This document shows positions 12,277-59,134 of a DNA stretch of 64,000 bases, piece after piece. The DNA is from Streptomyces nigrescens. Lineage in GTDB: Bacteria; Actinomycetota; Actinomycetes; Streptomycetales; Streptomycetaceae. The notes below the pieces were generated by a model that did not search any database, was not told the origin of the DNA, and saw only the letters and a list, made by a program, of their open reading frames with translations. The stretch's first letter is position 1; every line of letters begins with the position of its first letter. The position numbers and the translations under genes are program-made. The stretch is from assembly GCA_024349765.1 (NCBI GenBank), contig AP026073.1:7750001-7814000 (forward strand), written 5' to 3'.

Positions 12277-12407
12277 GTTTCACGTGAAACGAGGAAGCGT
12301 GCAACACCGTTTCACGTGAAACGCTCCCGTTTGTTTCACGTGAAACGGTGGGAGTGGTTGGCGTGGTTTCACGTGAAACGGCGAGAATCCGTGGTTTCAC
12401 GTGAAAC
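12277..12407. other. Cluster of five parS (ParB-binding) sites
   Basis: Five perfect GTTTCACGTGAAAC cores at 12277-12290, 12309-12322, 12333-12346, 12366-12379 and 12394-12407. This 14-bp palindrome is the established Streptomyces parS sequence bound by ParB for chromosome segregation. The first core is extended to a 26-bp palindrome (12271-12296, TTCCTC and GAGGAA arms). Cores two and three are flanked by CACC and GGTG, giving a larger nested hairpin. The cluster fills the gap between the His-rich protein gene and bpa, and the first palindrome could terminate transcription of the former. Confidence 0.93.
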
Positions 12408-12493
12408 ACCGGAGCTCGGGTCCCCCGGAAAGGTGGATCACGTTCTCCTGGGGGCACCACCGTCGAGAAGCCCTCGTACGAGAGAATGGCGGC

Positions 12494-13057
12494 ATGGATA
12501 TGCCGATGAACGAACGGTCGCAGGAGAACCCGCACGTCCTGGTTGTCGGCCCGGACGGCATGGCGCTCGGCAGCGCCGGCTCCGGTGGCGGGGACGACGG
12601 CGAGGAGCCCCGCGAGGTCCCGGTGACGGACATGGTCGAACAGCCTGCGAAGGTCATGCGCATCGGCAGCATGATCAAGCAGCTGCTGGAAGAGGTGAAG
12701 GCGGCTCCTCTCGACGAGGCCAGCCGGGTCCGGCTCAAGGAGATCCACGCCAGCTCGGTGAAGGAGCTGGAGGACGGGCTGGCCCCCGAACTGGTGGAGG
12801 AGCTGGAGCGGCTGTCGCTGCCGTTCACCGATGAGTCGGTGCCGACGGAGGCGGAGCTGCGGATCGCCCAGGCGCAGCTGGTGGGCTGGCTGGAGGGCCT
12901 GTTCCACGGCATTCAGACCGCGCTGTTCGCCCAGCAGATGGCCGCCCGTGCCCAGCTGGAGTCGATGCGCCGTGCCCTGCCGCCCGGTGTCCTGCCCACG
13001 GAGGGCGACGAGGGCAAGCCCGGCCACGGCGGAGCCCGCTCGGGTCCGTACCTCTGA
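12494..13057 (+). CDS. bpa: Bacterial proteasome activator Bpa/PafE
   Basis: ATP-independent ring-shaped activator that opens the 20S proteasome gate in actinobacteria. The 187-residue product contains the highly conserved block VEQPAKVMRIGSMIKQLLEEVKAAPLDEASR and AELRIAQAQLVGWLEGLFHGIQTALFAQQMAARAQL, spread over residues 45-160. It ends in GPYL, an HbYX-like tail as in the GQYL end of the mycobacterial protein, which docks into the proteasome alpha ring. The ATG at 12494 has no Shine-Dalgarno sequence; GAGAAT at 12482-12487 could serve a leaderless start. Other in-frame ATGs follow at codons 3 and 5. Confidence 0.93.
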   Translation: MDMPMNERSQENPHVLVVGPDGMALGSAGSGGGDDGEEPREVPVTDMVEQPAKVMRIGSMIKQLLEEVKAAPLDEASRVRLKEIHASSVKELEDGLAPELVEELERLSLPFTDESVPTEAELRIAQAQLVGWLEGLFHGIQTALFAQQMAARAQLESMRRALPPGVLPTEGDEGKPGHGGARSGPYL

Positions 13058-13069
13058 CCGTATGCACGA

Positions 13070-13100
13070 GGGGCCGGCACGCGGGATGCGTGCCGGCCCC
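13070..13100. terminator. Bidirectional hairpin between bpa and the kinase gene
   Basis: A perfect 13-bp stem GGGGCCGGCACGC (13070-13082) and GCGTGCCGGCCCC (13088-13100) with loop GGGAT, followed by TTCTG. It sits between the convergent stops of bpa (13057) and the kinase (13121), so it can serve both. Confidence 0.85.
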
Positions 13101-13120
13101 TTCTGTATGCGGTGCGACCG

Positions 13121-17779: not shown

Positions 17780-17831
17780 GCGCCAGATGTTAGATCAACT
17801 ACACCTGTGCGGGTGGGGGTATCGGAAAGCC

Positions 17832-19380: not shown

Positions 19381-20598
19381 GTGACCGTGGAAGGCACTGC
19401 GCAGCGGAAAAACACCCGCGGCAGCAGCAAGCGCACCACCGCCAAGAAGGCGACGCCTGCCAAGAAGGCGTCCCCGGCCAAGGCCCGTACCAACGGCCGG
19501 CCCGACCAGGCGGAGCAGGATCAGCTCGTACAACTGCTGACCCCGGAAGGGAAGCGGGTCGAGCACCCCGACTACGCCATCGACCTTTCCCCCGAAGAAC
19601 TGCGCGGCCTCTACCGCGACATGGTGCTGACGCGGAAGTTCGACGCCGAGGCGACCACCCTCCAGCGCCAGGGCGAGCTGGGCCTGTGGGCCTCGCTGCT
19701 GGGCCAGGAGGCCGCTCAGATCGGTTCCGGACGCGCGCTGCGCGACGACGACTACGTCTTCCCGACGTACCGCGAGCACGGTGTGGCGTGGTGCCGCGGA
19801 GTCGACCCGACGAATCTGCTGGGCATGTTCCGCGGTGTCAATCACGGCGGCTGGGACCCGAACAGCAACAACTTCCACCTCTACACCATCGTGATCGGTT
19901 CGCAGACGCTGCACGCGACCGGCTATGCGATGGGTGTCCAGAAGGATGGCGCGGATTCCGCGGTCATCGCGTATTTCGGTGACGGTGCCTCCAGCCAGGG
20001 CGATGTCGCGGAATCCTTCACGTTCTCCGCGGTGTACAACGCCCCCGTCGTGTTCTTCTGCCAGAACAATCAGTGGGCCATTTCCGAACCCACCGAGAAG
20101 CAGACCCGGGTGCCGCTCTACCAGCGCGCCCGCGGCTACGGATTCCCCGGCGTACGGGTCGACGGCAACGACGTGCTGGCCTGTCTCGCGGTGACCAAGG
20201 CGGCGCTGGAGCGGGCGCGCACCGGCCAGGGCCCGATGCTGATCGAGGCGTTCACGTACCGGATGGGCGCGCACACCACCTCCGACGACCCGACGCGCTA
20301 CCGCGGGGACGAGGAGCGGGTGGCCTGGGAGGCCAAGGACCCGATCCTGCGGCTGCGGACGTACCTGGAGGCCGAGGGCCTGGTCGACGAGGCGTACCTC
20401 GCGACCATCGACGAGGAGAGCGAGGCCCTGGGCGTGCGGGTCCGCGAGGCCGTCCGCGCCATGCCCGACCCGGACCACATGGCGATCTTCGAGAATGTCT
20501 ATGCCGACGGGCACGCGCTCGTCGATGAGGAGCGCGCGCAGTTCGCCGCGTACCAGGCGTCGTTCGTCGATGCCGATGTCCTGGCGGAGGGGAACTGA
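19381..20598 (+). CDS. bkdA: Branched-chain 2-oxo acid dehydrogenase E1 alpha (bkd operon copy 2)
   Basis: E1 alpha, 405 residues, same reaction as the copy at 2793. The ThDP motif FGDGASSQGD ends in QNN at about residues 198-230, and HTTSDDPTRYR is the phosphorylation-loop-like segment. Its N-terminus differs sharply from copy 1: residues 10-40 are Lys/Ala/Thr-rich (KKATPAKKASPAKA), like a histone-H1-type tail. The GTG start follows GGAGGAG at 19371. The motif versions (ASSQGDVAE and FCQNNQWAISEP) match the more widespread E1 alpha form, so the two operons probably diverged long ago or have different substrate preference. Confidence 0.95.
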   Translation: MTVEGTAQRKNTRGSSKRTTAKKATPAKKASPAKARTNGRPDQAEQDQLVQLLTPEGKRVEHPDYAIDLSPEELRGLYRDMVLTRKFDAEATTLQRQGELGLWASLLGQEAAQIGSGRALRDDDYVFPTYREHGVAWCRGVDPTNLLGMFRGVNHGGWDPNSNNFHLYTIVIGSQTLHATGYAMGVQKDGADSAVIAYFGDGASSQGDVAESFTFSAVYNAPVVFFCQNNQWAISEPTEKQTRVPLYQRARGYGFPGVRVDGNDVLACLAVTKAALERARTGQGPMLIEAFTYRMGAHTTSDDPTRYRGDEERVAWEAKDPILRLRTYLEAEGLVDEAYLATIDEESEALGVRVREAVRAMPDPDHMAIFENVYADGHALVDEERAQFAAYQASFVDADVLAEGN

Positions 20599-20600
20599 CC

Positions 20601-21584
20601 ATGGTCGTCCACGAGAAGATCACCATCGCCAAGGCGATCAACGCTTCGCTCCGGGCCTCCATGGAGGCCGACCCCAAGGTTCTCGTCATGGGCGAGGACG
20701 TCGGCAAGCTCGGCGGCGTCTTCCGGGTCACCGACGGACTGCAGAAGGACTTCGGCGAGGACCGGGTGATCGACACCCCGCTCGCCGAGTCGGGCATCGT
20801 CGGCACCGCGATCGGCCTGGCACTGCGCGGCTACCGCCCGGTCGTCGAGATCCAGTTCGACGGCTTCGTCTTCCCCGCCTACGACCAGATCGTCACCCAG
20901 CTCGCCAAGATGCACGCCCGCGCGCTGGGCAAGGTCAAGGTGCCGGTCGTCATCCGCATCCCGTACGCGGGCGGCATCGGTGCGGTCGAGCACCACTCCG
21001 AGTCCCCCGAGGCGCTGTTCGCGCACGTCGCGGGCCTCAAGATCGTCACTCCCTCGAACTCCTCCGACGCCTACTGGATGCTCCAGCAGGCCATCGCGGG
21101 CGACGACCCGGTCATCTACTTCGAACCCAAGCGGCGCTACCACGACAAGTCGCGGCTGGACACCGAGTCGATCCCGGACCCGCTGCACAAGGCCCGGGTC
21201 ACCCAGAGCGGCTCGGACCTGACACTGGCCGCCTACGGCCCGATGGTGAAGGTCTGCCTGGACGTCGCCAAGGTCGCGGCCGAGGAGGGCAAGTCGGTCG
21301 AGGTCGTCGACCTGCGCTCGCTCTCCCCGATCGACTTCGACACCCTGCAGTCGTCGGTGCAGAAGACCGGGCGCCTGGTCGTCGTCCACGAGGCGCCGGT
21401 GTTCTTCGGCGCGGGCGCGGAGATCGCCGCCCGGATCACCGAACGGTGCTTCTACCACCTGGAGGCCCCGGTCCTGCGCGTCGGCGGCTTCCACTCCCCG
21501 TACCCGCCCTCCCGGCTGGAGGACGAGTACCTTCCGGGACTGGACCGGGTGCTCGACGCCGTCGATCGTGCGCTGGCGTACTGA
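20601..21584 (+). CDS. bkdB: Branched-chain 2-oxo acid dehydrogenase E1 beta (copy 2)
   Basis: E1 beta, 327 residues, two bases after bkdA and preceded by GGAGGGG inside the end of bkdA. It has MGEDVGKLGGVFRVTDGL at the start, AGGIGAVEHHSESPEALF in the middle and the C-terminal domain VVHEAPVFFGAGAEIAARITERCFY. Compared with copy 1 it is about 17 residues shorter, mainly from termini. It is the second gene of a complete bkdABC operon. Confidence 0.95.
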   Translation: MVVHEKITIAKAINASLRASMEADPKVLVMGEDVGKLGGVFRVTDGLQKDFGEDRVIDTPLAESGIVGTAIGLALRGYRPVVEIQFDGFVFPAYDQIVTQLAKMHARALGKVKVPVVIRIPYAGGIGAVEHHSESPEALFAHVAGLKIVTPSNSSDAYWMLQQAIAGDDPVIYFEPKRRYHDKSRLDTESIPDPLHKARVTQSGSDLTLAAYGPMVKVCLDVAKVAAEEGKSVEVVDLRSLSPIDFDTLQSSVQKTGRLVVVHEAPVFFGAGAEIAARITERCFYHLEAPVLRVGGFHSPYPPSRLEDEYLPGLDRVLDAVDRALAY

Positions 21585-21601
21585 GGGTTTGAGGAGAGTT
21601 C

Positions 21602-23089
21602 GTGACCATGACTACAGGCACCGCCAAGGCCCAGCGCTTCCGCGAGTTCAAGATGCCCGACGTGGGCGAGGGGCTCACCGAGGCCGAGATCCTCAAGTGG
21701 TACGTCCAGCCCGGTGACACCGTCACCGACGGCCAGGTCGTGTGTGAGGTCGAAACCGCCAAGGCCGCCGTCGAACTGCCCATTCCCTACACCGGGGTGG
21801 TGCACGAGCTGCGCTTCGGCGAGGGCGTCACCGTCGACGTCGGCACCGCCATCATCGCGGTGGACACCGACCCGGGCGCGGGACCGGCCGAGGCCCCCGC
21901 GACCGGGAGCGCGCCGCAGGAGGCCGCTCCGGCCGAGGAGGACGCCGAGCCGCAGGGCCGCCAGGCGGTACTGGTCGGCTACGGCGCCGCGCCGTCCTCG
22001 ACCAAGCGCCGGGCGCGCAAGCCGCAGGCCGGTGTGCCGTCGCAGCCGGAGCCGGTGAAGGCCGCGCTCCAGGCCGAGCTGAACGGACGGCCCGCGGCGC
22101 AGCCGGCCGCTCCCGTCGCACCGCAGCCGGTCGCAACGGTGACGCCGGACGCCCGGCCCGTGGGCGCCGGGACCGCCGGGCGGCCGCTGGCCAAGCCGCC
22201 GGTGCGCAAGCTCGCCAAGGACCTCGGCATCGACCTGGCGACCGTCTCCCCGACCGGGCCGGACGGCATCATCACCCGCGAGGACGTGCACGCGGCCGCC
22301 GCCCCGGCGGCAGCGCAGGCACCGGCCGCGGAGGCTCCCGCCGCACCGGCCGCCGCTCCCGTGGTGACCGGTGTCGTGGACGCCGCGGCCCGCGAGCGTC
22401 GGGTGCCGGTCAAGGGCGTACGCAAGGCCACCGCGCAGGCGATGGTGGCCAGCGCCTTCACCGCGCCGCACGTCACGGAGTTCATCACCGTCGACGTGAC
22501 CCGCACGATGAAGCTCGTCCAGGAGCTGAAGCAGGACCCGGACATGGCCGGCCTGCGGGTCAACCCGCTGCTGATCGTCGCCAAGGCCCTCCTGGTCGCC
22601 CTCAAGCGGCACCCGGAGGTCAACGCGTCCTGGGACGAGGCGAACCAGGAGATCGTCTACAAGGACTACGTGAACCTCGGCATCGCGGCGGCCACCCCCC
22701 GCGGGCTGATCGTCCCCAACATCAAGGACGCCGGGTCCAAGACGCTCCCCCAACTCGCCGAGGAACTGGGCGATTTGGTCGCCACCGCCCGCGAGGGCAA
22801 GACCTCTCCGGCGGCCATGAGCGGGGGCACCGTCACCATCACCAACGTCGGTGTCTTCGGCGTCGACTCCGGTACGCCGATCCTCAACCCCGGGGAGTCG
22901 GCGATCCTCGCCGTCGGTGCGATCAAGCTCCAGCCCTGGGTGCACAAGGGCAAGGTGAAGGCGCGCCAGGTCACCACCCTCGCGCTGTCCTTCGACCACC
23001 GTCTCATCGATGGTGAGCTGGGCTCCAAGCTGCTCGCGGATATCGCGGCGGTGCTGGAGCGGCCGAAGCGGCTGATCACCTGGGGCTGA
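21602..23089 (+). CDS. bkdC: Branched-chain 2-oxo acid dehydrogenase E2 (copy 2)
   Basis: Lipoyl acyltransferase, 495 residues. Lipoyl domain with K54 in ETAKA, then an Ala/Pro linker, the E1/E3-binding domain (PPVRKLAKDLGIDLATVSPTGPDG), a second Ala-rich linker, and the acyltransferase domain with FDHRLIDG, H466 and D470. The GTG start follows GAGGAGAG at about 21591. It ends the second bkd operon; 34 bp after the stop begins a pair of parS sites with extended palindromes that may also act as the terminator. Confidence 0.95.
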   Translation: MTMTTGTAKAQRFREFKMPDVGEGLTEAEILKWYVQPGDTVTDGQVVCEVETAKAAVELPIPYTGVVHELRFGEGVTVDVGTAIIAVDTDPGAGPAEAPATGSAPQEAAPAEEDAEPQGRQAVLVGYGAAPSSTKRRARKPQAGVPSQPEPVKAALQAELNGRPAAQPAAPVAPQPVATVTPDARPVGAGTAGRPLAKPPVRKLAKDLGIDLATVSPTGPDGIITREDVHAAAAPAAAQAPAAEAPAAPAAAPVVTGVVDAAARERRVPVKGVRKATAQAMVASAFTAPHVTEFITVDVTRTMKLVQELKQDPDMAGLRVNPLLIVAKALLVALKRHPEVNASWDEANQEIVYKDYVNLGIAAATPRGLIVPNIKDAGSKTLPQLAEELGDLVATAREGKTSPAAMSGGTVTITNVGVFGVDSGTPILNPGESAILAVGAIKLQPWVHKGKVKARQVTTLALSFDHRLIDGELGSKLLADIAAVLERPKRLITWG

Positions 23090-23095
23090 CCCGGG

Positions 23096-24097
23096 ATGCG
23101 GGGCCGGTCGGGCCAGGGCGTCGTTTCACGTGAAACGACGCCTGGGGCCGGGGCCGGTGTTTCACGTGAAACACCGGCCCTCGCCCGACCGGCCCGCCCT
23201 CATGCCAGGGGCGCGCCGGGCGCCGTCCCGTCCGGTGCCGTTGACGAGCAGCTGATCGCCCGGCCGGCGCCCGCGCTCCGGCCGTACGTCAGCTCCTACG
23301 CCGCATACCGGCAGGCCGGGGTCCCGCCCGCCCTGCACCGCGGGCTCCCCTCGCCCCGGCTGACGCTGATCTTCACCCTCGACGAACCGCTCACCCTGGC
23401 CGGCCACCCTGACCCCGGCCAGGCTCCCGGCAGCTACGCCACCCTCCTCGGCGGACTGCACACCCGCCCCGCGCTGATCACCCATCAGGGCCGCCAGTCC
23501 GGCATCCAGCTCGCTCTGCACCCGCTGGGCGCCCGGGCGCTGCTGGGCGTGCCGGCCGGTGAGCTGGCCGGTAGGGATCTCCCCGCGGAGGCGGTGCTCG
23601 GGCCCCGGGGCCGGGACGTCGCCGAGCGGCTGCGTGAGGCCGCAGGCTGGCCGGAGCGGTTCGCCCTGCTGGACGCCCATCTGCTGCGGTGGCTGGACCG
23701 GGAGCCGGGTGGTGCGGGGCCCGCCCCGGCGCCCGAGGTCGCCCGCGCCTGGCAGCTCTTGACCGCCTCCCGGGGCGCCGTGCCGGTCGCGGCGCTCGCC
23801 GCCGACATCGGCTGGAGCGCCCGCCATCTGACCGCCCGCTTCCGGCAGGAAACCGGTCTGACGCCCAAGACCGCCGCCCGGGTCATCCGTTTCGACCGTG
23901 CACGACGGCGGCTGGGCGCCGCGGCCCGTACCGGCTCGCCCCCGCTGCTCGCCGAACTGGCCGCCGACTGCGGCTACTTCGACCAGGCGCACCTCGCCCG
24001 GGAGTTCCGCTCGCTGGCCGGCTGTCCACCCAGCCGGTGGCTCGCCGAGGAGTTCCGAAACGTCCAAGCCCCGGCGGACGGCCGCACGGAAGGCTGA
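23096..24097 (+). CDS. AraC-like transcriptional regulator, start uncertain
   Basis: AraC/XylS-type DNA-binding domain at the C-terminus (VAALAADIGWSARHLTARFRQETGLTPKTAARV and LAELAADCGYFDQAHLAREFRSLAG); the N-terminal part (ALRPYVSSYAAYRQAG, GLPSPRLTLIF) is typical of the DUF6597-type sensor. Homologous protein would begin near base 23245. The frame there has no ATG, GTG or TTG. The only such start is the ATG at 23096, which translates both parS sites as VSRET twice within an unlikely Gly/Ala/Pro-rich leader. Either a rare start (CTG at about 23252) is used, or the gene has lost its start. Product as drawn is 333 residues. Confidence 0.7.
   Translation: MRGRSGQGVVSRETTPGAGAGVSRETPALARPARPHARGAPGAVPSGAVDEQLIARPAPALRPYVSSYAAYRQAGVPPALHRGLPSPRLTLIFTLDEPLTLAGHPDPGQAPGSYATLLGGLHTRPALITHQGRQSGIQLALHPLGARALLGVPAGELAGRDLPAEAVLGPRGRDVAERLREAAGWPERFALLDAHLLRWLDREPGGAGPAPAPEVARAWQLLTASRGAVPVAALAADIGWSARHLTARFRQETGLTPKTAARVIRFDRARRRLGAAARTGSPPLLAELAADCGYFDQAHLAREFRSLAGCPPSRWLAEEFRNVQAPADGRTEG
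23123..23172. other. Pair of parS sites with extended palindromes
   Basis: Perfect GTTTCACGTGAAAC cores at 23123-23136 and 23159-23172. The second is the centre of a perfect 30-bp palindrome (23151-23180, arms GGGCCGGT and ACCGGCCC). The first is flanked by near-symmetric CAGGGCGTC and GACGCCTG. They lie just after bkdC and, if the only available start is used, inside the 5' end of the next reading frame. Confidence 0.9.
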
Positions 24098-25942: not shown

Positions 25943-26626
25943 ATGCCCTCAGCGTCCACGCCCACCGCGCCCGCCAGAGAATCCGCCGCCAAACAACCGC
26001 CCGCCGCCGAGCGGGTCTATGCGCACGTCAAGGACGCCGTCCTGCAGCGCCACTACGAGGGCGGCATGCTGCTCACCGAAGGCGAGCTGGCCGACGCGGT
26101 GGGCGTGTCCCGGACGCCCGTGCGCGAGGCGCTGCTGCGCCTGGAGGTCGAGGGGCTGATCAAGCTCTACCCGAAGAAGGGCGCCATGGTGCTGCCGGTC
26201 TCCGCACAGGAGATCGCCGACGTGGTCGAGACCCGGCTGCTGGTGGAGAAGCACGCCGCCGCCAAGGCGGTGCCCGCGAGCGAGCCGTTGCTCACCGAGC
26301 TGACCGAACTGCTGGACACCATGCGCGAGCAGGCGTCGTCCGGTGACCTGGCCGCCGTGTCCGTCACCGACCGGGCCTTCCACGCCGCCATCGTGCGCAG
26401 CGCCGGAAACCAGATCCTGGACCGGCTCTACGAGCAGCTGCGCGACCGCCAGCTGCGGATGGGCGTCGCGGTGATGCACGCCCACCCCGACCGGATCGCC
26501 AAGAACATCGCCGAGCACGCCGAGATCCTCGACGCGCTGCGGGCCGGTGACGCGGAGGCCGCGACCGACGTCGTGCACCGGCACGTCAGCTGGGTCCGCA
26601 ACCTCGCCCAGGGAGAGGTGCGATGA
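25943..26626 (+). CDS. GntR-family regulator, FadR (FCD) subfamily
   Basis: A 227-residue regulator: winged helix (AERVYAHVKDAVLQRHYEGG to VSRTPVREALLRLEVEGLIKLYPKKGAMV) and an FCD ligand domain with the metal-binding His set (FHAAIVRSAGN, later HAEILDALR and HRHVSW). The ATG is probably a leaderless start behind TATCCT. Its stop overlaps the ATG of an MFS transporter gene, so it most likely controls import or export of that transporter's substrate, perhaps a carboxylic acid as FCD proteins commonly sense. Confidence 0.9.
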   Translation: MPSASTPTAPARESAAKQPPAAERVYAHVKDAVLQRHYEGGMLLTEGELADAVGVSRTPVREALLRLEVEGLIKLYPKKGAMVLPVSAQEIADVVETRLLVEKHAAAKAVPASEPLLTELTELLDTMREQASSGDLAAVSVTDRAFHAAIVRSAGNQILDRLYEQLRDRQLRMGVAVMHAHPDRIAKNIAEHAEILDALRAGDAEAATDVVHRHVSWVRNLAQGEVR

Positions 26627-28023
26627 GCGGTGACACCGGCGGACCGGACGGCTCCATAGATGGCGGCTCCGGGTCGGGACCGGGCGCCGTGGGCGGCGGT
26701 TCCGCCCGCTCCGGCATAGGCGGCGGCGCCCGGCTGCTGCCCTTCGACCCGCCCGGCGGCCCCCGGGCGATGGCGGTCTGGGGCATCGGCGTCGCCGTCT
26801 ACTTCGTCGCGATCACCTACCGCACGAGCCTGGGCGTGGCCGGGCTGGACGCCGCCGAACGCTTCCACATCAACGCCTCGGCGCTGTCGACCTTCTCCAT
26901 CCTCCAGTTGCTGGTGTACGCGGGGATGCAGATCCCGGTCGGCCTGCTGGTCGACCGGCTCGGCGCCAAGAAGGTGCTGACCCTCGGCGTCGTCCTCTAC
27001 ACCCTCGGCCAGTTCGGCTTCGCGCTGTCCGCCTCGTACCCCATGGCGCTCGGCTCGCGCGCGCTGCTGGGCTGCGGGGACGCGATGACCTTCATCAGCG
27101 TGCTGCGGCTGGGTTCGCGCTGGTTCCCGGCCCGGCGCGGCCCGATGATCGCCCAGATCGCCGCACTGGTCGGAATGGCCGGCAACCTGGTCTCCACCCT
27201 CGTCCTCGCCCGCTTCCTGCACACCTTCGGCTGGACCCCGACCTTCGCCGCCAGCGCGGCCGGCGGCATCGTCGTGCTGATCGTGCTGCTGGCCTTCCTC
27301 AAGGACCACCCCGAGGGCTTCGAGCCGCCGCCGGCCGCGGCCGGGCACACCGGCGCCGGGTTCGTGCGGCGGCAGATCGCGGACGCCTGGCGAGAGCCCG
27401 GCACCCGGCTGGGCATGTGGGTGCACTTCACCACCCAGTTCCCGGCCATGGTGTTCTTGCTGCTGTGGGGCCTGCCGTTCCTCGTCGAGGCGCAGGGCCT
27501 GTCCCGCGGCACCGCCGGTGAACTGCTCACCCTGGTGGTGCTCTCCAACATGGCCGTGGGGCTGGTCTACGGCCAGATCATCGCCCGCCATCACGCCGCC
27601 CGCATGCCGCTGGCGCTGGGCACGGTCGGCGCCACCGCGCTGCTCTGGGCGAGCGTGCTGAGCTGGCCGGCCGACCATGCGCCCATGGGGCTGCTGATCG
27701 CGCTCTGCGCGGTGCTGGGCGCCTGCGGCCCGGCGTCGATGATCGGCTTCGACTTCGCCCGGCCCGCCAATCCGCCCGAGCGTCAGGGCACCGCCTCCGG
27801 CATCGTCAACATGGGCGGCTTCACCGCGTCGATGACGACCCTGCTCGCGATCGGCGTCCTGCTGGACGCGACCGGCGACAACTACCGGATCGCCTTCGCC
27901 TCGGTCTTCGTCCTCGAAGCGGTCGGTGTCTCCCAGATCCTGCGACTGCGCCGCCGGGCCGCCCGCCGCGAGCGCGAGCGGCTGGTCGTCAGCCGCGTCG
28001 AGGCGGTGCACGTTCCGGCCTGA
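26623..28023 (+). CDS. Major facilitator superfamily transporter
   Basis: A 466-residue MFS permease with about 12 hydrophobic helices between residues 50 and 445. It starts with a 45-residue Gly/Ser-rich cytosolic tail. GLLVDRLGAKKVL is the loop 2-3 MFS signature. The ATG overlaps the GntR stop (ATGA) with GGGAGAGG upstream. Two parS sites follow within 10-45 bp of the stop. Substrate cannot be told from sequence; coupling to an FCD regulator suggests a small organic acid. Confidence 0.9.
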   Translation: MSGDTGGPDGSIDGGSGSGPGAVGGGSARSGIGGGARLLPFDPPGGPRAMAVWGIGVAVYFVAITYRTSLGVAGLDAAERFHINASALSTFSILQLLVYAGMQIPVGLLVDRLGAKKVLTLGVVLYTLGQFGFALSASYPMALGSRALLGCGDAMTFISVLRLGSRWFPARRGPMIAQIAALVGMAGNLVSTLVLARFLHTFGWTPTFAASAAGGIVVLIVLLAFLKDHPEGFEPPPAAAGHTGAGFVRRQIADAWREPGTRLGMWVHFTTQFPAMVFLLLWGLPFLVEAQGLSRGTAGELLTLVVLSNMAVGLVYGQIIARHHAARMPLALGTVGATALLWASVLSWPADHAPMGLLIALCAVLGACGPASMIGFDFARPANPPERQGTASGIVNMGGFTASMTTLLAIGVLLDATGDNYRIAFASVFVLEAVGVSQILRLRRRAARRERERLVVSRVEAVHVPA

Positions 28024-28031
28024 GCGGCGCT

Positions 28032-28068
28032 GTTTCACGTGAAACGGCGCGGAAGTTTCACGTGAAAC
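28032..28068. other. Pair of parS sites
   Basis: Perfect GTTTCACGTGAAAC cores at 28032-28045 and 28055-28068, separated by nine bases, between the converging MFS and mycothiol-type genes. As inverted copies they can also pair as a 14-bp hairpin. Confidence 0.92.
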
Positions 28069-28109: not shown

Positions 28110-28934
28110 CTACGGCGTGACCGCGAAGTTGTCCAGGATCGCCTCGGCCAGCTCCTGGTCACCATCGATCTTGATCTGCTCGGCGACCGCCGCCGGGCGG
28201 ACCCGGCCGCAGGCCAGCTGGTGGAAGGTGTCCCAGTCCAGGGCGAGCGTCACCGTCGGGCCGAGCGAGACGCTGCCGTCGATGGTGGCATTGCCCTCGT
28301 TGTCGATCCGGACCGTACGCAGGAACTCGAGCGGACCGCTGACGTCGAAGACCACCACCGAACCGGCGGGTGCCTGGGCCCTCTTGGAGACGATGCCGGG
28401 CAGCACCTTGACCAGCAGATCGCGGGTCATCTGCGCGCCGGGGGAGTCGAGATTGCCGGGCTTGCCGAGCGCCCGGCGCAGGTCCTGCTCATGCGCCCAG
28501 ACGTCGAACGCCCGCTGCTGGAGCACGAATTCCAGCGTCCGGTCCTCGTCGAGCGGGCTGCGCACCACCGCGTCGGGCTGGCGGGACTCGTTGCGCAGCT
28601 GCCGGGAACGGCGGATGACGGTGTATTCGAGTTCGCTGAGCATTTCCGGCGCGGTGTGGTGCCGGCGGACGTCGACCTGCACCTCCATGCGGCGCGCCGA
28701 CTCGCTGCGGACGTGGTAGAGGTCGCGCGGCAGCGTGTGGATCGGCCGCGGATCGCCCAGCATTTCGCATTCCAGGCCGATGATGTGGGAGACCACATCG
28801 CGAACTGACCATCCTGGCAGGCACGTCGCCCGGTTCCACTCGCCTTCGACGAGCGGCGTCACCAGCTCGGTTATCGCTTCTATGGAGTGCGTCCAGGCAT
28901 CGATGGAGGACTGAAGGCTGGGATGGACGGTCAC
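28110..28934 (-). CDS. Maleylpyruvate isomerase/DinB-like mycothiol-dependent-type enzyme
   Basis: A 274-residue protein of the MDMPI/DinB fold, whose actinobacterial members use mycothiol or related thiols as cofactor. The N-terminal four-helix bundle has the metal-binding histidines in VRDVVSHIIGLE and FDVWAHEQDLRRAL; the C-terminal half is a small domain seen in this family, ending in an SCP2-like segment (TFHQLACGRVRPA). The GTG start follows GAGGGG. It is one of many paralogues in Streptomyces genomes, with unknown individual substrates. Confidence 0.85.
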   Translation of the reverse strand: MTVHPSLQSSIDAWTHSIEAITELVTPLVEGEWNRATCLPGWSVRDVVSHIIGLECEMLGDPRPIHTLPRDLYHVRSESARRMEVQVDVRRHHTAPEMLSELEYTVIRRSRQLRNESRQPDAVVRSPLDEDRTLEFVLQQRAFDVWAHEQDLRRALGKPGNLDSPGAQMTRDLLVKVLPGIVSKRAQAPAGSVVVFDVSGPLEFLRTVRIDNEGNATIDGSVSLGPTVTLALDWDTFHQLACGRVRPAAVAEQIKIDGDQELAEAILDNFAVTP

Positions 28935-31493: not shown

Positions 31494-31520
31494 GCCCGGG
31501 CCCGTTGACGGGGCCCGGGC
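31494..31520. terminator. Hairpin between thioredoxin-NHL and DUF4232 genes
   Basis: Perfect 10-bp stem GCCCGGGCCC (31494-31503) and GGGCCCGGGC (31511-31520), loop GTTGACG. It lies between converging stops at 31485 and 31556. Confidence 0.8.
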
Positions 31521-33331: not shown

Positions 33332-33369
33332 GTTACACGATCCGGATCGGACCCGGACCAGCTGGTGAC

Positions 33370-33431
33370 GTTTCACGTGAAACGGACCGCGCGTCAGCGC
33401 CTCGCCCCCACCTCGCCGTTTCACGTGAAAC
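33370..33431. other. Pair of parS sites
   Basis: Perfect GTTTCACGTGAAAC cores at 33370-33383 and 33418-33431, between the NlpC/P60 stop (33456) and the XRE gene. Confidence 0.92.
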
Positions 33432-33455: not shown

Positions 33456-34379
33456 TCAGTCGCCGAACTTCACCGGACGGTACGGCGTGAACTCGGCGTC
33501 CCCGCCCGGCAGGCCGTAGGTCAGCGTCCGGTGGTCGGTGCCGTAGCCACCGCGCTGCTCATAGGCCGTGTACGAGGAGTGTGCGTCGTTGTTCCACTTC
33601 TCGAAGATCACCACGTGCCGGTTGTTGTTGTCCCCGGACGCATCGATGAGCAGATCACCGGGCTTGAGTTCGCCCAGCGAAATCGGTCGGGTGATACCGC
33701 GGTCGGTGGCCAGGCCCACGGTGTTGGTGCCCGGCGTCGGCAGCCCGAGCGCCATGGACGCATAGCCCGAGCAGTCCTGGCGGTAGCCGTCCTTCCAGAC
33801 CTTGGCCTGGCTGTACGGGACCTGCGCGCCATTGTTGGCGGTGAGCCAGGTGGCGGCCCGGTTCAGCACCTCCTGGCGGGAGCCGCCGGGCTGGGGCCGG
33901 CCGCCACCGCCGTGGACCGGTACGCCCGGCAGCCGGTCCTGCGGGATGTCCACCGCGACCACCGTGAGGAAGCCGGTGACCGGGCCGGTGACGTGGGCCA
34001 TGTACGTCGAGCAGGCGCTGCCCTCGCACACCTGGTGTCCGGTGTCGACCTGGTAGTCGGCGGTGATCCGGTCCTGGCCCGCGGCGGTCCTGTTGATCAT
34101 GCCGACGGCGGGGGAGTTGGTGTCGGGGTCGGCATGCACCACCCATCGCGTCCCCCAGGTGGGAAAGTCCGAGGCGGCCGCCGCCTGCCGGCCGTCGGCG
34201 GCCGTGGCCTGCCGTATGTCCGCGCCCGCCGCCTGCCGTACGCCGGTGGCGGTTGCCGGGCCGGGATCGCTGCCGTGGGCCGGCCCCGCGAATCCCGCGA
34301 CGCCGATTCCCGCGGCGACCACCGCGGGCAGCGCCTTCCGCAGCACGGTCCGGCGACCGCTGTGCGTGTGCTCCTCCAT
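33456..34379 (-). CDS. Secreted NlpC/P60-like cell-wall hydrolase, probable Tat substrate
   Basis: A 307-residue exported protein. The signal peptide has a twin-arginine pattern, GRRTVLRKALPAVVAAGIGVAGFAGPAHG, suggesting export folded through Tat. The C-terminal half matches NlpC/P60-type Cys/His peptidases: QDCSGYASMAL with the catalytic Cys near residue 215, then GDLLID and NRHVVIFEKW with the His. The middle domain (WGTRWVVHADPDTNSPAVGMINR) has no recognised family. Likely substrate is peptidoglycan stem peptide. The start at 34379 follows GGAGGGG. A short Ala/Gln repeat (RQAAGADIRQATAADGRQAAA) follows the signal peptide. Confidence 0.8.
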   Translation of the reverse strand: MEEHTHSGRRTVLRKALPAVVAAGIGVAGFAGPAHGSDPGPATATGVRQAAGADIRQATAADGRQAAAASDFPTWGTRWVVHADPDTNSPAVGMINRTAAGQDRITADYQVDTGHQVCEGSACSTYMAHVTGPVTGFLTVVAVDIPQDRLPGVPVHGGGGRPQPGGSRQEVLNRAATWLTANNGAQVPYSQAKVWKDGYRQDCSGYASMALGLPTPGTNTVGLATDRGITRPISLGELKPGDLLIDASGDNNNRHVVIFEKWNNDAHSSYTAYEQRGGYGTDHRTLTYGLPGGDAEFTPYRPVKFGD

Positions 34380-41820: not shown

Positions 41821-42774
41821 ATGCCCGCTGTGACCGTAGAGAACCCGCTGACCCTGCCCCGTGTGGCGGCACCCGCCGCGGCGCAGGCCCGTCCCGTGCT
41901 GGGCGTCGCCACCGCGCCGAGCGGATTCGAAGGCGAAGGCTTCCCGGTGCGCCGGGCCTTCGCCGGCATCGACTACAAGCACCTCGACCCGTTCATCATG
42001 ATGGATCAGATGGGCGAGGTGGAGTACGCGCCCGGAGAGCCCAAGGGCACGCCCTGGCACCCGCACCGCGGCTTCGAGACCGTCACGTACCTGATCGACG
42101 GCACGTTCGTGCACCGTGACTCGCACGGCGGCGGTGGGGTCATCAACGGCGGTGACACGCAGTGGATGACGGCGGGCTCCGGTCTGCTGCACATCGAGGC
42201 GCCGCCGGAGTCGCTGGTCATGTCCGGCGGTCTCTTCCACGGCCTCCAGCTGTGGGTCAACCTGCCGAAGAGCGACAAGATGATGGCCCCCCGCTACCAG
42301 GACATCGGCGGCGGCCAGGTCAAGCTGCTGACCTCCGCCGACGGCGGGGCGCTGCTGCGCCTGATCGCCGGTGACATCGACGGCCACCACGGGCCGGGCG
42401 TCACGCACACGCCGATCACGATGATGCATGTGACGGTGAATCCCGGTGCCGAGCTGACCCTCCCCTGGCGCAAGGATTTCAACGCCCTCGCCTACGCCCT
42501 GGCCGGGCGCGGCACCGCCGGTGCGGACGGGCGCCCGTTCCGCATGGGCCAGGCGGTGGTGTTCGGAGCCGGCGACTCGCTCACGATCCGGGCGGACGAG
42601 ACCCAGGAGTCACGCAGCCCGAACTTCGAGGTGGTGCTGCTGGGCGGGCTGCCGATCCGCGAGCCGATGATGCACTACGGCCCGTTCGTGATGAACACCC
42701 ACGCCGAACTGGCCCAGGCCTTCGAGGACTTCCAGGCCGGCCGGCTCGGCACGATCCCCGCCGGGGAGCACTGA
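41821..42774 (+). CDS. Pirin-family protein
   Basis: A 317-residue bicupin. The N-terminal cupin has the pirin iron ligands in HPHRGFETVTYLIDG and the glutamate in HIEAPPES; GLQLWVNLP follows, and the C-terminal cupin is present. Pirins act as redox-sensing regulators or quercetinases. The start follows GAGGAGG. The promoter region contains the AT-rich stretch GTTGTTCAGCATTCAAC and palindrome AACTAAGTT. Position near an acyl-CoA dehydrogenase gene fits a role in tuning beta-oxidation, which is inferred. A long hairpin of two parS sites follows. Confidence 0.93.
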   Translation: MPAVTVENPLTLPRVAAPAAAQARPVLGVATAPSGFEGEGFPVRRAFAGIDYKHLDPFIMMDQMGEVEYAPGEPKGTPWHPHRGFETVTYLIDGTFVHRDSHGGGGVINGGDTQWMTAGSGLLHIEAPPESLVMSGGLFHGLQLWVNLPKSDKMMAPRYQDIGGGQVKLLTSADGGALLRLIAGDIDGHHGPGVTHTPITMMHVTVNPGAELTLPWRKDFNALAYALAGRGTAGADGRPFRMGQAVVFGAGDSLTIRADETQESRSPNFEVVLLGGLPIREPMMHYGPFVMNTHAELAQAFEDFQAGRLGTIPAGEH

Positions 42775-42797
42775 CCCGGCGTCGGACGTCGTGACGA

Positions 42798-42846
42798 GAG
42801 GCGGTGTTTCACGTGAAACGAGGTGTTTCACGTGAAACACCGCCTC
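42798..42846. other. Pair of parS sites forming a 22-bp perfect hairpin
   Basis: parS cores at 42806-42819 and 42825-42838 are extended by GAGGCGGT on the left and ACCGCCTC on the right. Arms 42798-42819 and 42825-42846 are exact reverse complements over 22 bp with a five-base loop GAGGT. It starts 23 bp after the pirin stop, so it is also a strong candidate terminator. Confidence 0.92.
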
Positions 42847-42898
42847 CGGCGCGTTCCCCCGCCCGTTTCCGGACCGTGCGCCATGGTGGACTGTCCGG

Positions 42899-46459: not shown

Positions 46460-48223
46460 ATGCACCGGTACCGGTCCCATAACTGCGGCGAGCTCCGAGC
46501 CGCGGACGTCGACACCGACGTCCGCCTCAGCGGCTGGCTGCACAATCGACGTGACCTGGGCGGCATCCTCTTCATCGATCTGCGCGACCACTACGGTCTC
46601 GTCCAGCTCGTGGCCCGCCCCGGCACCCCCGGCGCCGAGGCGCTGGACAAGCTGACGAAGGAGACGGTCGTCCGCGTCGACGGCAAGGTCGTCTCGCGCG
46701 GCGCCGAGAACGTCAACCCGGAGCTGCCCACCGGCGAGATCGAGATCGAGGTCACCGAGGTCGAGGTCCTGGGCGCGGCCCAGCAGATCCCGTTCACGAT
46801 CAACACGGACGACGGCGTCAACGAGGAGAAGCGCCTGGAGTACCGCTTCCTCGACCTTCGCCGCGAGCGGATGCACCGCAACATCATGCTGCGCTCGGCG
46901 GTCATCGCGTCCATCCGCCAGAAGATGACCGCCCTCGGCTTCAACGAGATGGCGACGCCGATCCTCAGCGCCACCTCCCCGGAGGGCGCCCGCGACTTCG
47001 TCGTGCCGTCCCGCCTGCACCCGGGCAAGTTCTACGCGCTGCCGCAGGCCCCGCAGCAGTTCAAGCAGCTGCTGATGATCTCGGGCTTCGACCGGTACTT
47101 CCAGATCGCCCCGTGCTTCCGCGACGAGGACGCCCGCGCCGACCGCTCGCCGGGCGAGTTCTACCAGCTCGACATCGAGATGTCCTTCGTCGAGCAGGAG
47201 GACGTCTTCCAGCCGGTCGAGAAGCTGATGACCGAGCTGTTCGAGGAGTTCGGCGGCGGCCGCCACGTCACCTCGCCGTTCCTGCGCATCCCGTTCCGCG
47301 AGGCGATGCTGAAGTACGGCTCCGACAAGCCGGACCTGCGCGCCCAGCTGGAACTCGTCGACATCACCGACGTCTTCGAGGGCTCGGAGTTCAAGGCGTT
47401 CGCGGGCAAGCACGTCCGTGCGCTGCCGGTGCCGGCCGTGCAGGACCAGCCGCGCAAGTTCTTCGACCAGCTCGGCGACTACGCGGTCCAGCAGGGCGCC
47501 AAGGGCCTGGCCTGGGTGCGCGTCGGCGAGGACGGCTCGCTGTCCGGCCCGATCGCCAAGTTCCTCACCGAGGAGAACGTCAAGGTCCTCACCGAGCGCC
47601 TCGGCCTGGAGGCCGGCCACGCGGTCTTCTTCGGCGCGGGCGAGTTCGACGAGGTCTCGAAGATCATGGGCGCGGTCCGCGTCGAGGCCGCCAAGCGCGC
47701 CGGCCACTTCGAGGAGAACGTCTTCCGCTTCTGCTGGATCGTCGACTTCCCGATGTACGAGCGGGACGAGGAGACCGGCAAGATCGACTTCTCCCACAAC
47801 CCCTTCTCGATGCCCCAGGGCGGCATGAAGGACCTGGAGGAGAAGGACCCGCTGGACATCCTGGGCTGGCAGTACGACATCGTCTGCAACGGCGTCGAGC
47901 TGTCCTCCGGCGCGATCCGGAACCACGAGCCGGACATCATGATCAAGGCCTTCGAGATCGCCGGCTACGACCGTGAGACCGTCGAGGAGAAGTTCGCGGG
48001 CATGCTCCGCGCCTTCCGCTTCGGCGCCCCGCCGCACGGCGGTATCGCCCCGGGCGTCGACCGCATCGTCATGCTGCTCGCGGACGAGCCGAACATCCGC
48101 GAGACCATCGCGTTCCCGCTGAACGGCAACGCGCAGGACCTGATGATGGGCGCGCCCACCGAGCTGGAAGAGGCCCGGCTCAAGGAGCTCAGCCTCAACA
48201 TCCGCAAGCCGCAGGTGAAGTAG
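46460..48223 (+). CDS. aspS: Aspartyl-tRNA synthetase
   Basis: Class II synthetase charging tRNA-Asp, 587 residues, the usual bacterial length. The N-terminal OB-fold anticodon domain has [26 protein letters not shown]; motif 2 region is [24 protein letters not shown]; the bacterial GAD insertion lies at about 290-410; motif 3 is [13 protein letters not shown] near 535. The ATG at 46460 gives the standard MHRYRSH start of actinobacterial AspRS. A 17-bp perfect hairpin containing a parS site follows the stop. Confidence 0.97.
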
Positions 48224-48264
48224 CCACCACCGGCAGGGGCCGGGGCCGGCTCCCGCCGGGCCGC

Positions 48265-48310
48265 AGGGGCGGTGTTTCACGTCGTTCGTTTCACGTGAAA
48301 CACCGCCCCT
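48265..48310. other. Single parS site plus half site inside a 17-bp hairpin after aspS
   Basis: A full parS core at 48288-48301 and a broken one, GTTTCACGT then CGTTC, at 48274. Arms AGGGGCGGTGTTTCACG (48265-48281) and CGTGAAACACCGCCCCT (48294-48310) pair perfectly around a 12-base loop. It sits 42 bp past the aspS stop and likely terminates it. Confidence 0.88.
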
Positions 48311-48418
48311 CGCCATGTCGCGGCCCGGTGCCCCGGCCGTGCACCGCGCGCGGCGCCCTGTGCTCCAACCGCACCACACATGTGGCCGGGCGCACGCCAC
48401 CCCCGCAGGGTGGTGCCC

Positions 48419-50167: not shown

Positions 50168-50194
50168 GGCCCCCACGGCCGCCGGCCCCCCATA

Positions 50195-55688: not shown

Positions 55689-55810
55689 GCGAGCCCGAAA
55701 CCGCAGAGGAACAACGGTAGTCGTAGCCGTGAGCCCGGTCCCGGGAAGGGGCCGGGCTCGCGGCGTTCCCGGACCTGCCGGCGTCCCCGCGGCGGTACCG
55801 GCCTCGGCCG

Positions 55811-56671: not shown

Positions 56672-57429
56672 CGCCGCCGGACGACTGTCTGGCCCGTAAC
56701 GAGTGGATCTGCGGCGACTACCTGTCCACGCGCCGGCAGATCCTGCTCGACGCGGTCCTCCAGCACCTCCAGTTGACCGTCGTCTCGGTGGCGCTCGGGC
56801 TGCTGGTCGCGGTGCCCCTGGCGCTGCTGGCCCGGCGATGGCGGTGGACGGTCGGGCCGGTCCTCGGTGTGACCACGGTCCTCTACACGATCCCGTCGCT
56901 GGCGATGTTCTCGCTGCTGCTGCCGGTCTACGGGCTCTCCGCCACGCTCGTCGTGGTCGGGCTGGCGCTGTACTCGCTCACCCTGCTCGTACGGAACCTC
57001 CTGGCCGGGCTGAACGGCGTACCCGCCGAGGCCAGGGACGCCGCCCGCGGCATGGGCTACGGCCCGCTGCGCCAACTGCTCACCGTCGAACTGCCGCTGG
57101 CCGTGCCCGCCGCGATGGCCGGACTGCGGATCGCGACGGTCTCGGCGGTGGCGCTCACCACCGTCGGCGCGATCGTCGGCTACGGCGGGCTCGGCAACCT
57201 CATCTACGCGGGGATGAACTCCTTCTTCAAGGCACAGGTGCTCACCGCGTCCGTGCTGTGCGTCCTGATCGCGATCGTCTTCGACCTGCTACTGCTCGGC
57301 GCGGAACGGCTGCTCACGCCCTGGCGGCGGGCGGGCCGTACGGCGCGGGGGCGGCGGTCGCGGTGGCGGGGGCGCGCCGCCGCCGGGCGCACGCAGCCGG
57401 TCGCGGCGGCGTCGGGACGACGGACGTGA
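56662..57429 (+). CDS. Osmoprotectant-type ABC transporter permease
   Basis: Inner-membrane subunit, 255 residues with about six helices, of the glycine betaine/choline (OpuC/ProW-like) family. ARDAARGMGYGPLRQLLTVELPLAVP is the EAA loop that contacts the ATPase; TIPSLAMFSLLLP and GYGGLG match the family. Its C-terminal 40 residues are Arg-rich. The GTG start overlaps the divergent deacetylase start by 10 bp. It overlaps the next permease gene by four bases (GTGA). Confidence 0.9.
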   Translation: MTAPPPDDCLARNEWICGDYLSTRRQILLDAVLQHLQLTVVSVALGLLVAVPLALLARRWRWTVGPVLGVTTVLYTIPSLAMFSLLLPVYGLSATLVVVGLALYSLTLLVRNLLAGLNGVPAEARDAARGMGYGPLRQLLTVELPLAVPAAMAGLRIATVSAVALTTVGAIVGYGGLGNLIYAGMNSFFKAQVLTASVLCVLIAIVFDLLLLGAERLLTPWRRAGRTARGRRSRWRGRAAAGRTQPVAAASGRRT

Positions 57430-58103
57430 ACACCCTCGCCGCGGTCTGGGACTGGCTGACCACCGGCGCCAACTGGTCGGGGGAGAACGGTGTCTGGCAC
57501 CGGCTCCTCCAGCACCTCGTCCTCACCGTCTCCTGCCTGGTCATCAGCGCGCTGATCGCGCTGCCCGTCGCGCTGACCCTCGGTCACCTCGGGCGCGGCG
57601 GGGCGCTGGCCGTCAATCTCGCCAACGTCGGCCGCGCCGTCCCGACCTTCGCCGTGCTGGTCCTGCTGCTGCTCACCCCCGTCGGCCGGCACGGGCAGTG
57701 GCCGACGGTCATCGCGCTGGTCCTGTTCGCCGTTCCGCCGCTGCTGACCAATGCGTACGTCGGGATGCGTGACGTGGACCGGGACGTGGTGCGGGCCGCG
57801 CGGGGCATGGGGATGACCGGGATGCAGCTGGTGTGGCGGGTCGAGGTGCCGCTCGCCTTCCCGCTCGTCCTGACCGGTGTGCGGATCGCCGCGGTCCAGC
57901 TCGTCGCGACCGCCACGCTCGCCGCGCTGGTGGGCGGCGGTGGGCTCGGCCGGATCATCACCGCGGGGTTCAGCCTCGCCAGCACCCCGCAGGTGGTCGC
58001 CGGTGCGGTGCTGGTCGCGGTGTTCGCCCTGCTGATGGAGGCCGGGTTCGAGCTGGTCGAACGGTATGCGCCGGGCGGCTGGGCGCGGGGGCGGGGCCGG
58101 TGA
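57426..58103 (+). CDS. Osmoprotectant-type ABC transporter permease, second
   Basis: Second inner-membrane subunit, 225 residues and about six helices. The EAA loop is DVDRDVVRAARGMGMTGMQLVWRVEVPLAFPLVLTG in pieces, with RAVPTFAVLVLLLL and VGGGGLGRIITAG as family marks. The GTG overlaps the end of the first permease gene and the TGA overlaps the GTG of the binding-protein gene, so the three are one translational unit. Confidence 0.92.
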   Translation: MNTLAAVWDWLTTGANWSGENGVWHRLLQHLVLTVSCLVISALIALPVALTLGHLGRGGALAVNLANVGRAVPTFAVLVLLLLTPVGRHGQWPTVIALVLFAVPPLLTNAYVGMRDVDRDVVRAARGMGMTGMQLVWRVEVPLAFPLVLTGVRIAAVQLVATATLAALVGGGGLGRIITAGFSLASTPQVVAGAVLVAVFALLMEAGFELVERYAPGGWARGRGR

Positions 58104-59062
58104 GGGCCGGGGCGGCCGCCGCCCTGATGGCGCTGGGCGTGGTCGCGCTGCCGGTGCTCGCCGGCTGCGCCACCGGCCCCTCCCTGGAGACCCGTTCCCG
58201 GATCACCGCCTCGCCGGGGGACAGCCGCGATCTGGCGATCGGCTCGGCCGGCTTCACCGAGAGCGAGCTGCTCGCCCAGATGTACGCCGCACTGCTCGAC
58301 CACGCCGGGTACCGCACCCACGTCCTCACCGTCGGCAACCGTGAGCTGTACGAACCGGCGCTGGAGGCCGGGCAGATCGACGTCGTGCCCGAGTACGCGG
58401 CCACCTTCGCGGACTGGCTGAACGCCAAGGCGCACGGCTCCAAGGCGCCCCCGGTGGCCTCACCCGACCTCGGGGTGACGCTGCGCGCACTGCGCCGGCT
58501 GGCCGGGCCCCGCGGGCTGACCGTGCTCCCGCCCGGCCGGGCCGTGGACCAGAACGCCTTCGCAGTGAGCGCCGCGTACGCCCGCAAGCACCACCTCAAG
58601 ACGCTCGGCGACCTGGGCCGCGCCAAACTGCCGGTGCGCCTCGCGGCGGGCGAGGAATGCGTACAACGACCCTTCTGCGCCCCGGGGTTGCGGAAGGCGT
58701 ACGGGATCAACGTCACCGTCATCGACCCCAAGGGCGTCGGCACCACCCCCGCCAAGCAGGCCGTGCAGAACGGGCAGGACCAGATGGTGCTGACCACCAG
58801 CACCGACGCGACCCTGGACCAGTTCGGGCTGGTGCTGCTCACCGACGACAAGAAGCTGCAGAACGCCGATTACGTGCTGCCCGTCGTCAACCGGTCCCGC
58901 GCGGGCAGCGCCCGGCCGGCCGCCGCGCTCAACCGCCTCAACAAGGTCCTGACCACGACTGACCTGGCCCATCTCAACGAGCAGGTGGACAGCTGGCGAC
59001 GGTTGCCGGCGGATGTGGCGCGTCACTACCTGCAGGAGAAGGGGCTGCTGCCGAAGGGCTGA
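58100..59062 (+). CDS. Osmoprotectant ABC transporter substrate-binding lipoprotein
   Basis: A 320-residue ProX/OpuCC-type binding protein. Lipobox VLAGC puts C23 at the membrane. Typical segments: IGSAGFTESELLAQMYAALLDHAGY and GQIDVVPEYAATFADWLN, which shape the quaternary-amine pocket, and a second lobe. Ligand is likely glycine betaine, choline or carnitine. It is coupled to the permease genes. The ATPase gene is not in the operon but faces it on the other strand 100 bp away. Confidence 0.92.
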   Translation: MRAGAAAALMALGVVALPVLAGCATGPSLETRSRITASPGDSRDLAIGSAGFTESELLAQMYAALLDHAGYRTHVLTVGNRELYEPALEAGQIDVVPEYAATFADWLNAKAHGSKAPPVASPDLGVTLRALRRLAGPRGLTVLPPGRAVDQNAFAVSAAYARKHHLKTLGDLGRAKLPVRLAAGEECVQRPFCAPGLRKAYGINVTVIDPKGVGTTPAKQAVQNGQDQMVLTTSTDATLDQFGLVLLTDDKKLQNADYVLPVVNRSRAGSARPAAALNRLNKVLTTTDLAHLNEQVDSWRRLPADVARHYLQEKGLLPKG

Positions 59063-59082
59063 GCGGGCGGCGACGGCTGGGT

Positions 59083-59134
59083 GTTTCACGTGAAACCGGC
59101 ACCCTCTTCGCGACCGCGCCGTTTCACGTGAAAC
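59083..59134. other. Pair of parS sites between converging ABC genes
   Basis: Perfect GTTTCACGTGAAAC cores at 59083-59096 and 59121-59134. CGGCTG on the left (then GGT) and AGCCG on the right extend the pair into a longer imperfect hairpin between converging stops 59062 and 59164, suited to terminate both. Confidence 0.92.

Follow-up and report, generated by a model that had tools for sequence, protein, structure and literature searches.

A sizeable share of parS sites in Streptomyces probably lies within terminator-type hairpins

We have analysed a stretch of 64,000 nucleotides from Streptomyces nigrescens (G000:C1:7750001-7814000, hereafter the window) that contains 16 exact copies of GTTTCACGTGAAAC, the predicted ParB-loading site parS. 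The copies start at 12277, 12309, 12333, 12366, 12394, 23123, 23159, 28032, 28055, 33370, 33418, 42806, 42825, 48288, 59083 and 59121, and fall into seven loci (of 5, 2, 2, 2, 2, 1 and 2 sites), within which neighbouring sites are spaced 19-48 bp start to start; the original prediction, made from this sequence alone, had given these same sites, loci and spacings, and exact search recovered all of them. No additional copy was found in the window at one or two mismatches, and the core occurred in none of 100 dinucleotide shuffles of the window. A half-parS, GTTTCACGT, at 48274-48282 was missing from the original list, which also overlooked the hairpin context of the sites. We judge that context to be clear at three of the seven loci and probable at a fourth. 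The features of the window are as follows.

12277..12407, no strand assigned: five-site parS array, its first site in a predicted hairpin at about 12259-12305
23096-24097, + strand: AraC-type open reading frame (ORF), open across 23123 and 23159, each read VSRET
23114..23146, + strand: parS 23123-23136 forms the apex of a hairpin that follows the stop of the E2 acyltransferase gene (21602-23089) by 33 nt
23151..23180, + strand: second hairpin, with parS 23159-23172 at its apex and 8-bp perfect arms
28032..28068, no strand assigned: parS pair between convergent MFS (26623-28023, +) and MDMPI-type (28110-28796, -) genes
31494..31520, + strand: GC hairpin without parS, after gene 29818-31485, read by eye
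33370..33431, no strand assigned: parS pair, 72 and 24 nt downstream of the - strand ORF 33456-34379
42798..42846, + strand: two parS (42806, 42825) in one 22-bp stem, 31 nt after the pirin stop (gene 41821-42774)
48265..48310, + strand: hairpin over the half-parS 48274-48282 and parS 48288-48301, with 9-bp arms aggggcggt/accgcccct
59083..59134, no strand assigned: parS pair between convergent OpuAC (58100-59062, +) and ABC ATPase (59164-60321, -) genes

Folding was scored as a z value with parS kept fixed and its flanks shuffled. The stretch with the two hairpins behind the E2 gene (23090-23190) gives z = -2.8, and the pirin locus, where the 8-bp arms gaggcggt/accgcctc enclose both parS copies, gives z = -2.6 (42775-42860). 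The hairpin at 48265-48310, which follows a gene for a class II (D/K/N) tRNA synthetase that contains a GAD domain (46460-48223), lies in a stretch (48224-48330) that scores z = -5.3 and includes another GC hairpin. At 59083/59121 the two copies pair mutually and the outer arms are imperfect (59063-59163, z = -2.4 on the + strand and -1.2 on the - strand). The first site of the five-site array lies 22 nt after the stop of a + strand ORF ending at 12254 (no match in Pfam), and its hairpin, with 6-bp perfect arms and a bulged continuation, is statistically weak (z = -0.67); the gene after the array encodes a bacterial proteasome activator (12494-13057). The copies at 28032/28055 can pair mutually, with almost no arm contributed by the flanks (z = -0.5 and -0.4), and those at 33370/33418 have no convincing arms (z = -0.2); apart from self-pairing of parS, neither locus has a GC hairpin of terminator type. 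When parS was shuffled too, six stretches gave z of -3.2 to -6.5, parS self-pairing included.

The association extends well past the window. We pooled this genome with ten stretches of nine relatives and 80 named loci, giving 315 sites with distinct 20-bp flanks, and exchanged right flanks between sites as a control. Perfect arms of at least 6 bp on each side of parS occur at 34/315 sites, compared with about 1.7 after swapping; the 34 collapse to 15 if arms differing at fewer than 3 of 8 positions are merged. If a single mismatch is tolerated, such arms are present at 40/281 oriented intergenic sites versus 6.2 in the control (at most 13 over 200 swaps), and a stop codon precedes 30 of these by 17-45 nt. 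An unpicked sample (the first listed site and its neighbours at 29 genus loci) has arms of at least 6 bp at 4/35 distinct sites. Nearly all sites with arms of at least 5 bp (38/41) lie within 100 nt of a gene end, at a median of 32 nt, and 24 of the 41 are between convergent genes; for intergenic sites with arms of 0-1 bp, 146/229 are within 100 nt behind a gene end. Among sites no more than 60 nt from a 3' end, 29/155 have arms of 6 bp or longer, versus 5/137 of the others (p = 4e-5) and none of ten in divergent spacers. Outer arms of at least 8 bp close over both copies in 8 of 115 close pairs, with 0.9 expected. In a census of 127 parS clusters, many of them orthologous, from 11 stretches of ten genomes, divergent spacers contain 9 clusters, co-directional spacers 72 and convergent spacers 46, these spacers making up 29.7%, 54.2% and 16.1% of intergenic bases, respectively; at most 50 nt separate 29 of the 72 co-directional clusters from the stop of the preceding gene, and 6 from the start of the following one. 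The combination of parS and hairpin is common, not universal.

The strongest locus for such hairpins lies outside the window, in the convergent spacer behind pcnB (7674970-7676448, - strand), which contains five parS in this genome. We read the pcnB 3' stretch in 70 of the 121 genus genomes searched, a non-random set of the 30 best matches and 40 lower-ranked ones, and found parS at most 160 nt behind pcnB in 69/70 (in G104 the stop-codon search overran, and G104 does carry parS sites). Where exactly two sites are present, arms of 6 bp or longer are seen at 30/57 first sites (swap mean 3.2, maximum 9 of 1000), five further first sites being too near the pcnB stop for scoring, and at 39/59 distinct second sites (swap mean 5.7, maximum 12); a pair of hairpins, each of 7 bp or more, is present in nineteen genomes. 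Arm covariation is found at this locus, and the window loci were judged by eye: the pcnB-spacer arms covary between species with up to four Watson-Crick types per column, and in column 2 of the second site the bases pair in 47/59 (17.6 on average and 27 at most after shuffling), and all four types are represented. Stretches of roughly 58 nt have median folding energies of -29.1 (n=34) and -35.7 kcal/mol (n=62), and with parS fixed the median z is -4.2 (n=34) and -5.5 (n=62), with z < -2 in 22 and 51. The Term-seq account of S. clavuligerus (PMC8269248) gives a cut-off of -23 kcal/mol for structured 3' ends, over 40 nt at 30 C, a length and temperature that differ from ours.

Orthologous spots show the same association. 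At the E2 spot, complementary arms enclose parS or a decayed core in ten further genomes of the group: a single parS between long arms in S. piniterrae, S. sioyaensis and S. natalensis (the last with a second parS directly after the armed one), two copies 9 nt apart within common arms in S. noursei and four relatives, an arm-enclosed pair separated by 1 nt in G088, and in S. chattanoogensis a decayed core, GTTTTACGTGAAAC, in the hairpin followed by an intact parS. Parts of the GGGGCGGT arm are common to several of these hairpins. Elsewhere in Streptomyces (e.g. G240, G091, L233 and L244) the E2 spot has, by eye, a plain GC hairpin, and in L217 and L231 parS stands immediately ahead of such a hairpin. 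In G302, G171, G088, L181 and L191 the pirin spot has a hairpin with 11-16 bp arms and a single apical parS, with an additional parS behind the hairpin in G302 and G171. Behind gene 29818-31485 there are plain hairpins by eye in this genome, S. lydicus, L168 and L172, and hairpins with apical parS in S. chattanoogensis (L170; 17-bp arms) and S. natalensis (L175; 13-bp arms). At several orthologous spots, then, relatives without parS often show a plain terminator-like hairpin in its place.

Such composites make up a sizeable share of sites both within the genus and in certain neighbouring genera of its family. We surveyed the pcnB spot in 20 further genomes from 14 other genera of the family. 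There, parS has perfect 11-bp arms in G507, G510 and G516 and 5-bp arms in G509; by eye, G512 has two copies within outer arms, and G521 a decayed core together with parS within arms. In G513, G515 and G517 parS is without such arms, and eleven of the 20 have no exact core at this spot. Among these eleven, G561 (L364) carries the variant core GTTCCACGTGGAAC behind pcnB, in one case flanked by complementary arms, and G508 (L350) has one-mismatch parS variants; in their genus, g67, parS may be altered yet still palindromic. At class level, 107 genomes outside the genus carry 0-10 copies of GTTTCACGTGAAAC. The class search yielded 55 distinct sites at 30 loci, of which 35 sites in 18 loci are listed as outside the genus; arms of at least 4 bp occur at 0/35 of these, with the core identical, and one of the other 20 sites has 6-bp arms (L341, origin not listed).

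The original prediction placed the sites only between genes, which stands for 14 of the 16. Our script's gene calls leave all 16 outside genes, but do so by starting the AraC-type gene at GTG 23594, a start that would remove conserved sequence. Up to that point the only in-frame starts are ATG 23096, GTG 23549 and GTG 23594, and the alignment with a relative (L172, S. sioyaensis) begins at residue 21. As the frame is open through 23123 and 23159, with few in-frame starts and an L172 relative aligning from residue 21, we count 14/16 sites as intergenic and two as uncertain; this parS pair may be translated as the N-terminus of the AraC-type protein. The AraC-type copy of L172 (from about 4720) looks internally deleted, and a search of plasmids with the E2-AraC stretch gave no match. 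The 2-oxoacid dehydrogenase operons at 2793-6474 and 19381-23089, about 13 kb apart, look alike (N-termini compared by eye), and Pfam confirmed the E2 of the second only. Every one of the seven loci has a site 8-64 nt from some gene 3' end.

Across the genome (9.33 Mb, two contigs) there are 46 exact sites, or 56 at up to two mismatches (10 beyond the exact ones; reversed control 2). The exact sites are clustered: 44/46 lie at 7.613-7.809 Mb, i.e. from -81 to +115 kb of dnaA (at about 7.694 Mb), which excludes a uniform distribution of the 14-mer, and the remaining two lie at 7.947 Mb, +254 kb from dnaA. That outlying pair (G000:C1 7947296-7947347) is between convergent genes by our script's calls. 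The ParB gene, with ParB_N, HTH_ParB and ParB_C domains, is at 7.687-7.688 Mb, 5.5 kb from dnaA, with a ParA-like frame upstream. The exact consensus, the clustering at dnaA and the nearby ParB gene bear out the identification of the motif as Streptomyces parS, and the other two expectations of the original prediction also hold: the window is oriC-proximal, its sites lying 69-115 kb from dnaA on the dnaN side, and with 16/46 exact sites it contains much of the centromere. We conclude that these are predicted ParB-loading sites of a Streptomyces chromosome of the lydicus/noursei group. Outside the window, parS lies in the parB frame at G000:C1 7688253 (read VSRET, after the conserved N-terminus) and in the parA frame at G000:C1 7689377 (read VSRET, upstream of the Walker motif), so intergenic placement is no genome-wide rule. 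A third parS near 7689663 is read differently in the parA frame (FHVK) and may lie ahead of the start codon. A second ParB-family gene (G000:C1 1131712-1132206, within a 414-aa open frame) perhaps comes from an integrated element. Streptomyces chromosomes usually have a central origin; dnaA here lies only 0.56 Mb inside its 8.25-Mb contig, which may reflect assembly or contig order.

Sites with arms have a stable GC-rich hairpin soon after a stop codon, and we consider it likely that parS is there embedded in hairpins of terminator type, termination itself being what we infer from the sequence. GC-rich complementary arms would flank one parS or enclose two, and, mostly 12-50 nt past the stop, the transcript of the upstream gene would fold so that the parS palindrome forms the apex or the inner stem. 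The hairpin would end transcription, and the same 14 bp, as duplex DNA, would load ParB. A self-complementary core would be tolerated at the centre of a terminator stem, where pairing is preserved; because it fits there, intergenic DNA at gene 3' ends, remote from promoters, could gain parS or retain it. In Pseudomonas, ParB at parS upstream of genes can repress them, according to PMC7022226, and such promoter-side repression fits the scarcity of parS in divergent spacers. Read-through across the ParB-covered region might also be limited. Since pairing is kept as arm sequence varies, with parS at the centre and at terminator positions, a dual element is the simplest account. Our searches of the open-access literature turned up no paper joining parS with terminators in Streptomyces and no description of parS inside hairpins.

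Several observations weigh against a dual element. The majority of pooled sites (250/315) have a perfect arm of only 0-1 bp, and three of the seven window loci have folding scores close to zero (z = -0.7 at 12255, -0.5 at 28024 and -0.2 at 33350). Some orthologous spots without parS, including the 29818-31485 spot in some other relatives, have no obvious plain hairpin. Orthologous sites are non-independent, and our p-values and binomial values ignore kinship and so overstate significance; the intergenic and 3'-end counts rest on gene calls from our own script. One rival reading is a plain parS cluster, in which sites would serve ParB loading only, would lie behind genes since coding and promoter DNA excludes them, and would have palindromic flanks by accident. 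Such a cluster accounts for the intergenic and 3' bias, the clustering at dnaA and the armless majority, and leaves unexplained the perfect parS-centred arms at about 20 times the swap control, the covariation of arms across species at one locus and the arms that enclose two copies; we regard it as unlikely.

Other points touch on the RNA itself. In a comparison of G-U with A-C mismatches, the first pcnB hairpins have A-C 10 and G-U 1, the opposite of the prediction for RNA, and the second hairpins have G-U 8 and A-C 4, with few mismatches overall. Signs of a U-tract are weak. In the pool there is a modest T excess past the 3' arm (2.85 T per 8 nt at convergent and 1.61 at co-directional sites versus 1.17 expected); behind pcnB the excess is absent from first hairpins (1.18), second hairpins having 2.15. 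Both results, counting against the dual element, favour an extended operator or cruciform acting at the DNA level, where long palindromes would aid ParB loading or mark the segrosome and transcription would be irrelevant. We nonetheless find this quite improbable, as arm sequence changes and complementarity persists, as arms of at least 6 bp concentrate near gene ends and are absent from the divergent spacers, and as the 35 outside-genus sites lack even 4-bp arms despite an identical core. Template switching during replication at the parS palindrome could lengthen it without selection, and the often perfect, fast-varying arms would agree with this; such a process should act everywhere, whereas the arms concentrate behind stops, in the genus and some family members, and we hold it to be very improbable.

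The original prediction also proposed that pair spacing tunes ParB spreading, an idea that the spacings do not support, as their pooled periodicity disappeared when orthologous pairs were collapsed. A helical-phasing signal in 111 pooled pairs was lost at 53 collapsed spacings (p(max) 0.22), and with 23 spacings from other genomes added p(max) was 0.93. In some pairs the spacing goes together with the hairpin arms. Given the recurrent GGGGCGGT/ACCGCCCC arm, whole elements may have been copied: in pooled loci it occurs in 17 distinct contexts with parS between the arms and in one short-loop hairpin without parS. Part of this arm is the base next to parS, which weakens the copying argument, and a comparison of 7-bp arms gave no decision either way.

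Abundant parS near oriC is already known for the genus. According to the account in PMC8743542, 20 closed Streptomyces genomes have a mean of 22.8 parS (range 11-65), with ~80% on one side of oriC. We find GTTTCACGTGAAAC in all 393 genus genomes of at least 95% completeness, at 5 to 69 copies; the 46 copies here, the top count in a set of 61 genomes, are fifth among the 393 (69, 62, 50, 47, 46). Seven genomes with ParB 86-97% like that of this genome have 35-69 copies (24 compared, partly picked for high counts), and the next ParB, of G036 (85%), goes with 16. G048 and G064, with PcnB at 91 and 94%, have 16 and 27 copies, so the expansion of parS is uneven within the group. A scan of named genomes with the protein of 29818-31485 kept 80 Streptomyces loci, with best matches in S. 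lydicus and S. piniterrae (94%) and S. sioyaensis (93%), and 91-92% in S. noursei, S. chattanoogensis and S. natalensis; at least one parS lies around the homologue in 18/80 (at most 10 kb per side, some shorter), including all of the top ten ranked loci. Counts on the parAB and dnaN sides of the origin are 24:20 here (300 kb counted), 19:10 in G088 and 25:16 in G302, compared with 17:4, 11:3, 12:2 and 13:2 in four lower-count genomes, and more even sides look like a feature of the lydicus/noursei group.

On balance we lean towards the broader view that the Streptomycetaceae centromere is partly built into the termination system, each composite parS-hairpin both loading ParB and ending transcription, and that in the lydicus/noursei group parS numbers grew on the dnaN side, which is usually poor in parS, partly by adding parS to terminator apices. 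If this is true, it would give a reason why dozens of parS leave Streptomyces gene expression undisturbed, and ParB loading would be tied to gene ends. Surveys of parS and terminator predictors may be picking up identical sequences. The natural sets of sites, with or without arms and with one or two parS, suit tests of interference between transcription and ParB sliding or SMC loading.

Like the ParABS systems of S. coelicolor and S. venezuelae, the one described here has a similar 14-bp core, many copies around oriC and a ParB gene by dnaA. As reported in PMC4852455, S. coelicolor has 23 parS in the chromosome centre and one near an end, and S. venezuelae has 16 by chromatin immunoprecipitation sequencing; here there are 46 exact sites, spread 24:20 over the two sides, and part of them lies within hairpins. 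The GC-rich terminators of Streptomyces, including the U-poor kind, have a strong stem-loop shortly past the stop, as here, and in the S. clavuligerus Term-seq account 353/535 highly structured 3' ends are without a U-rich tract (PMC8269248). What sets the present hairpins apart is their apex, a protein-binding palindrome of fixed sequence that recurs in tens of copies close to oriC; their role in termination is putative. Bidirectional terminators are symmetric hairpins between convergent genes; the pcnB spacer, by comparison, often holds two hairpins, each with its own parS.

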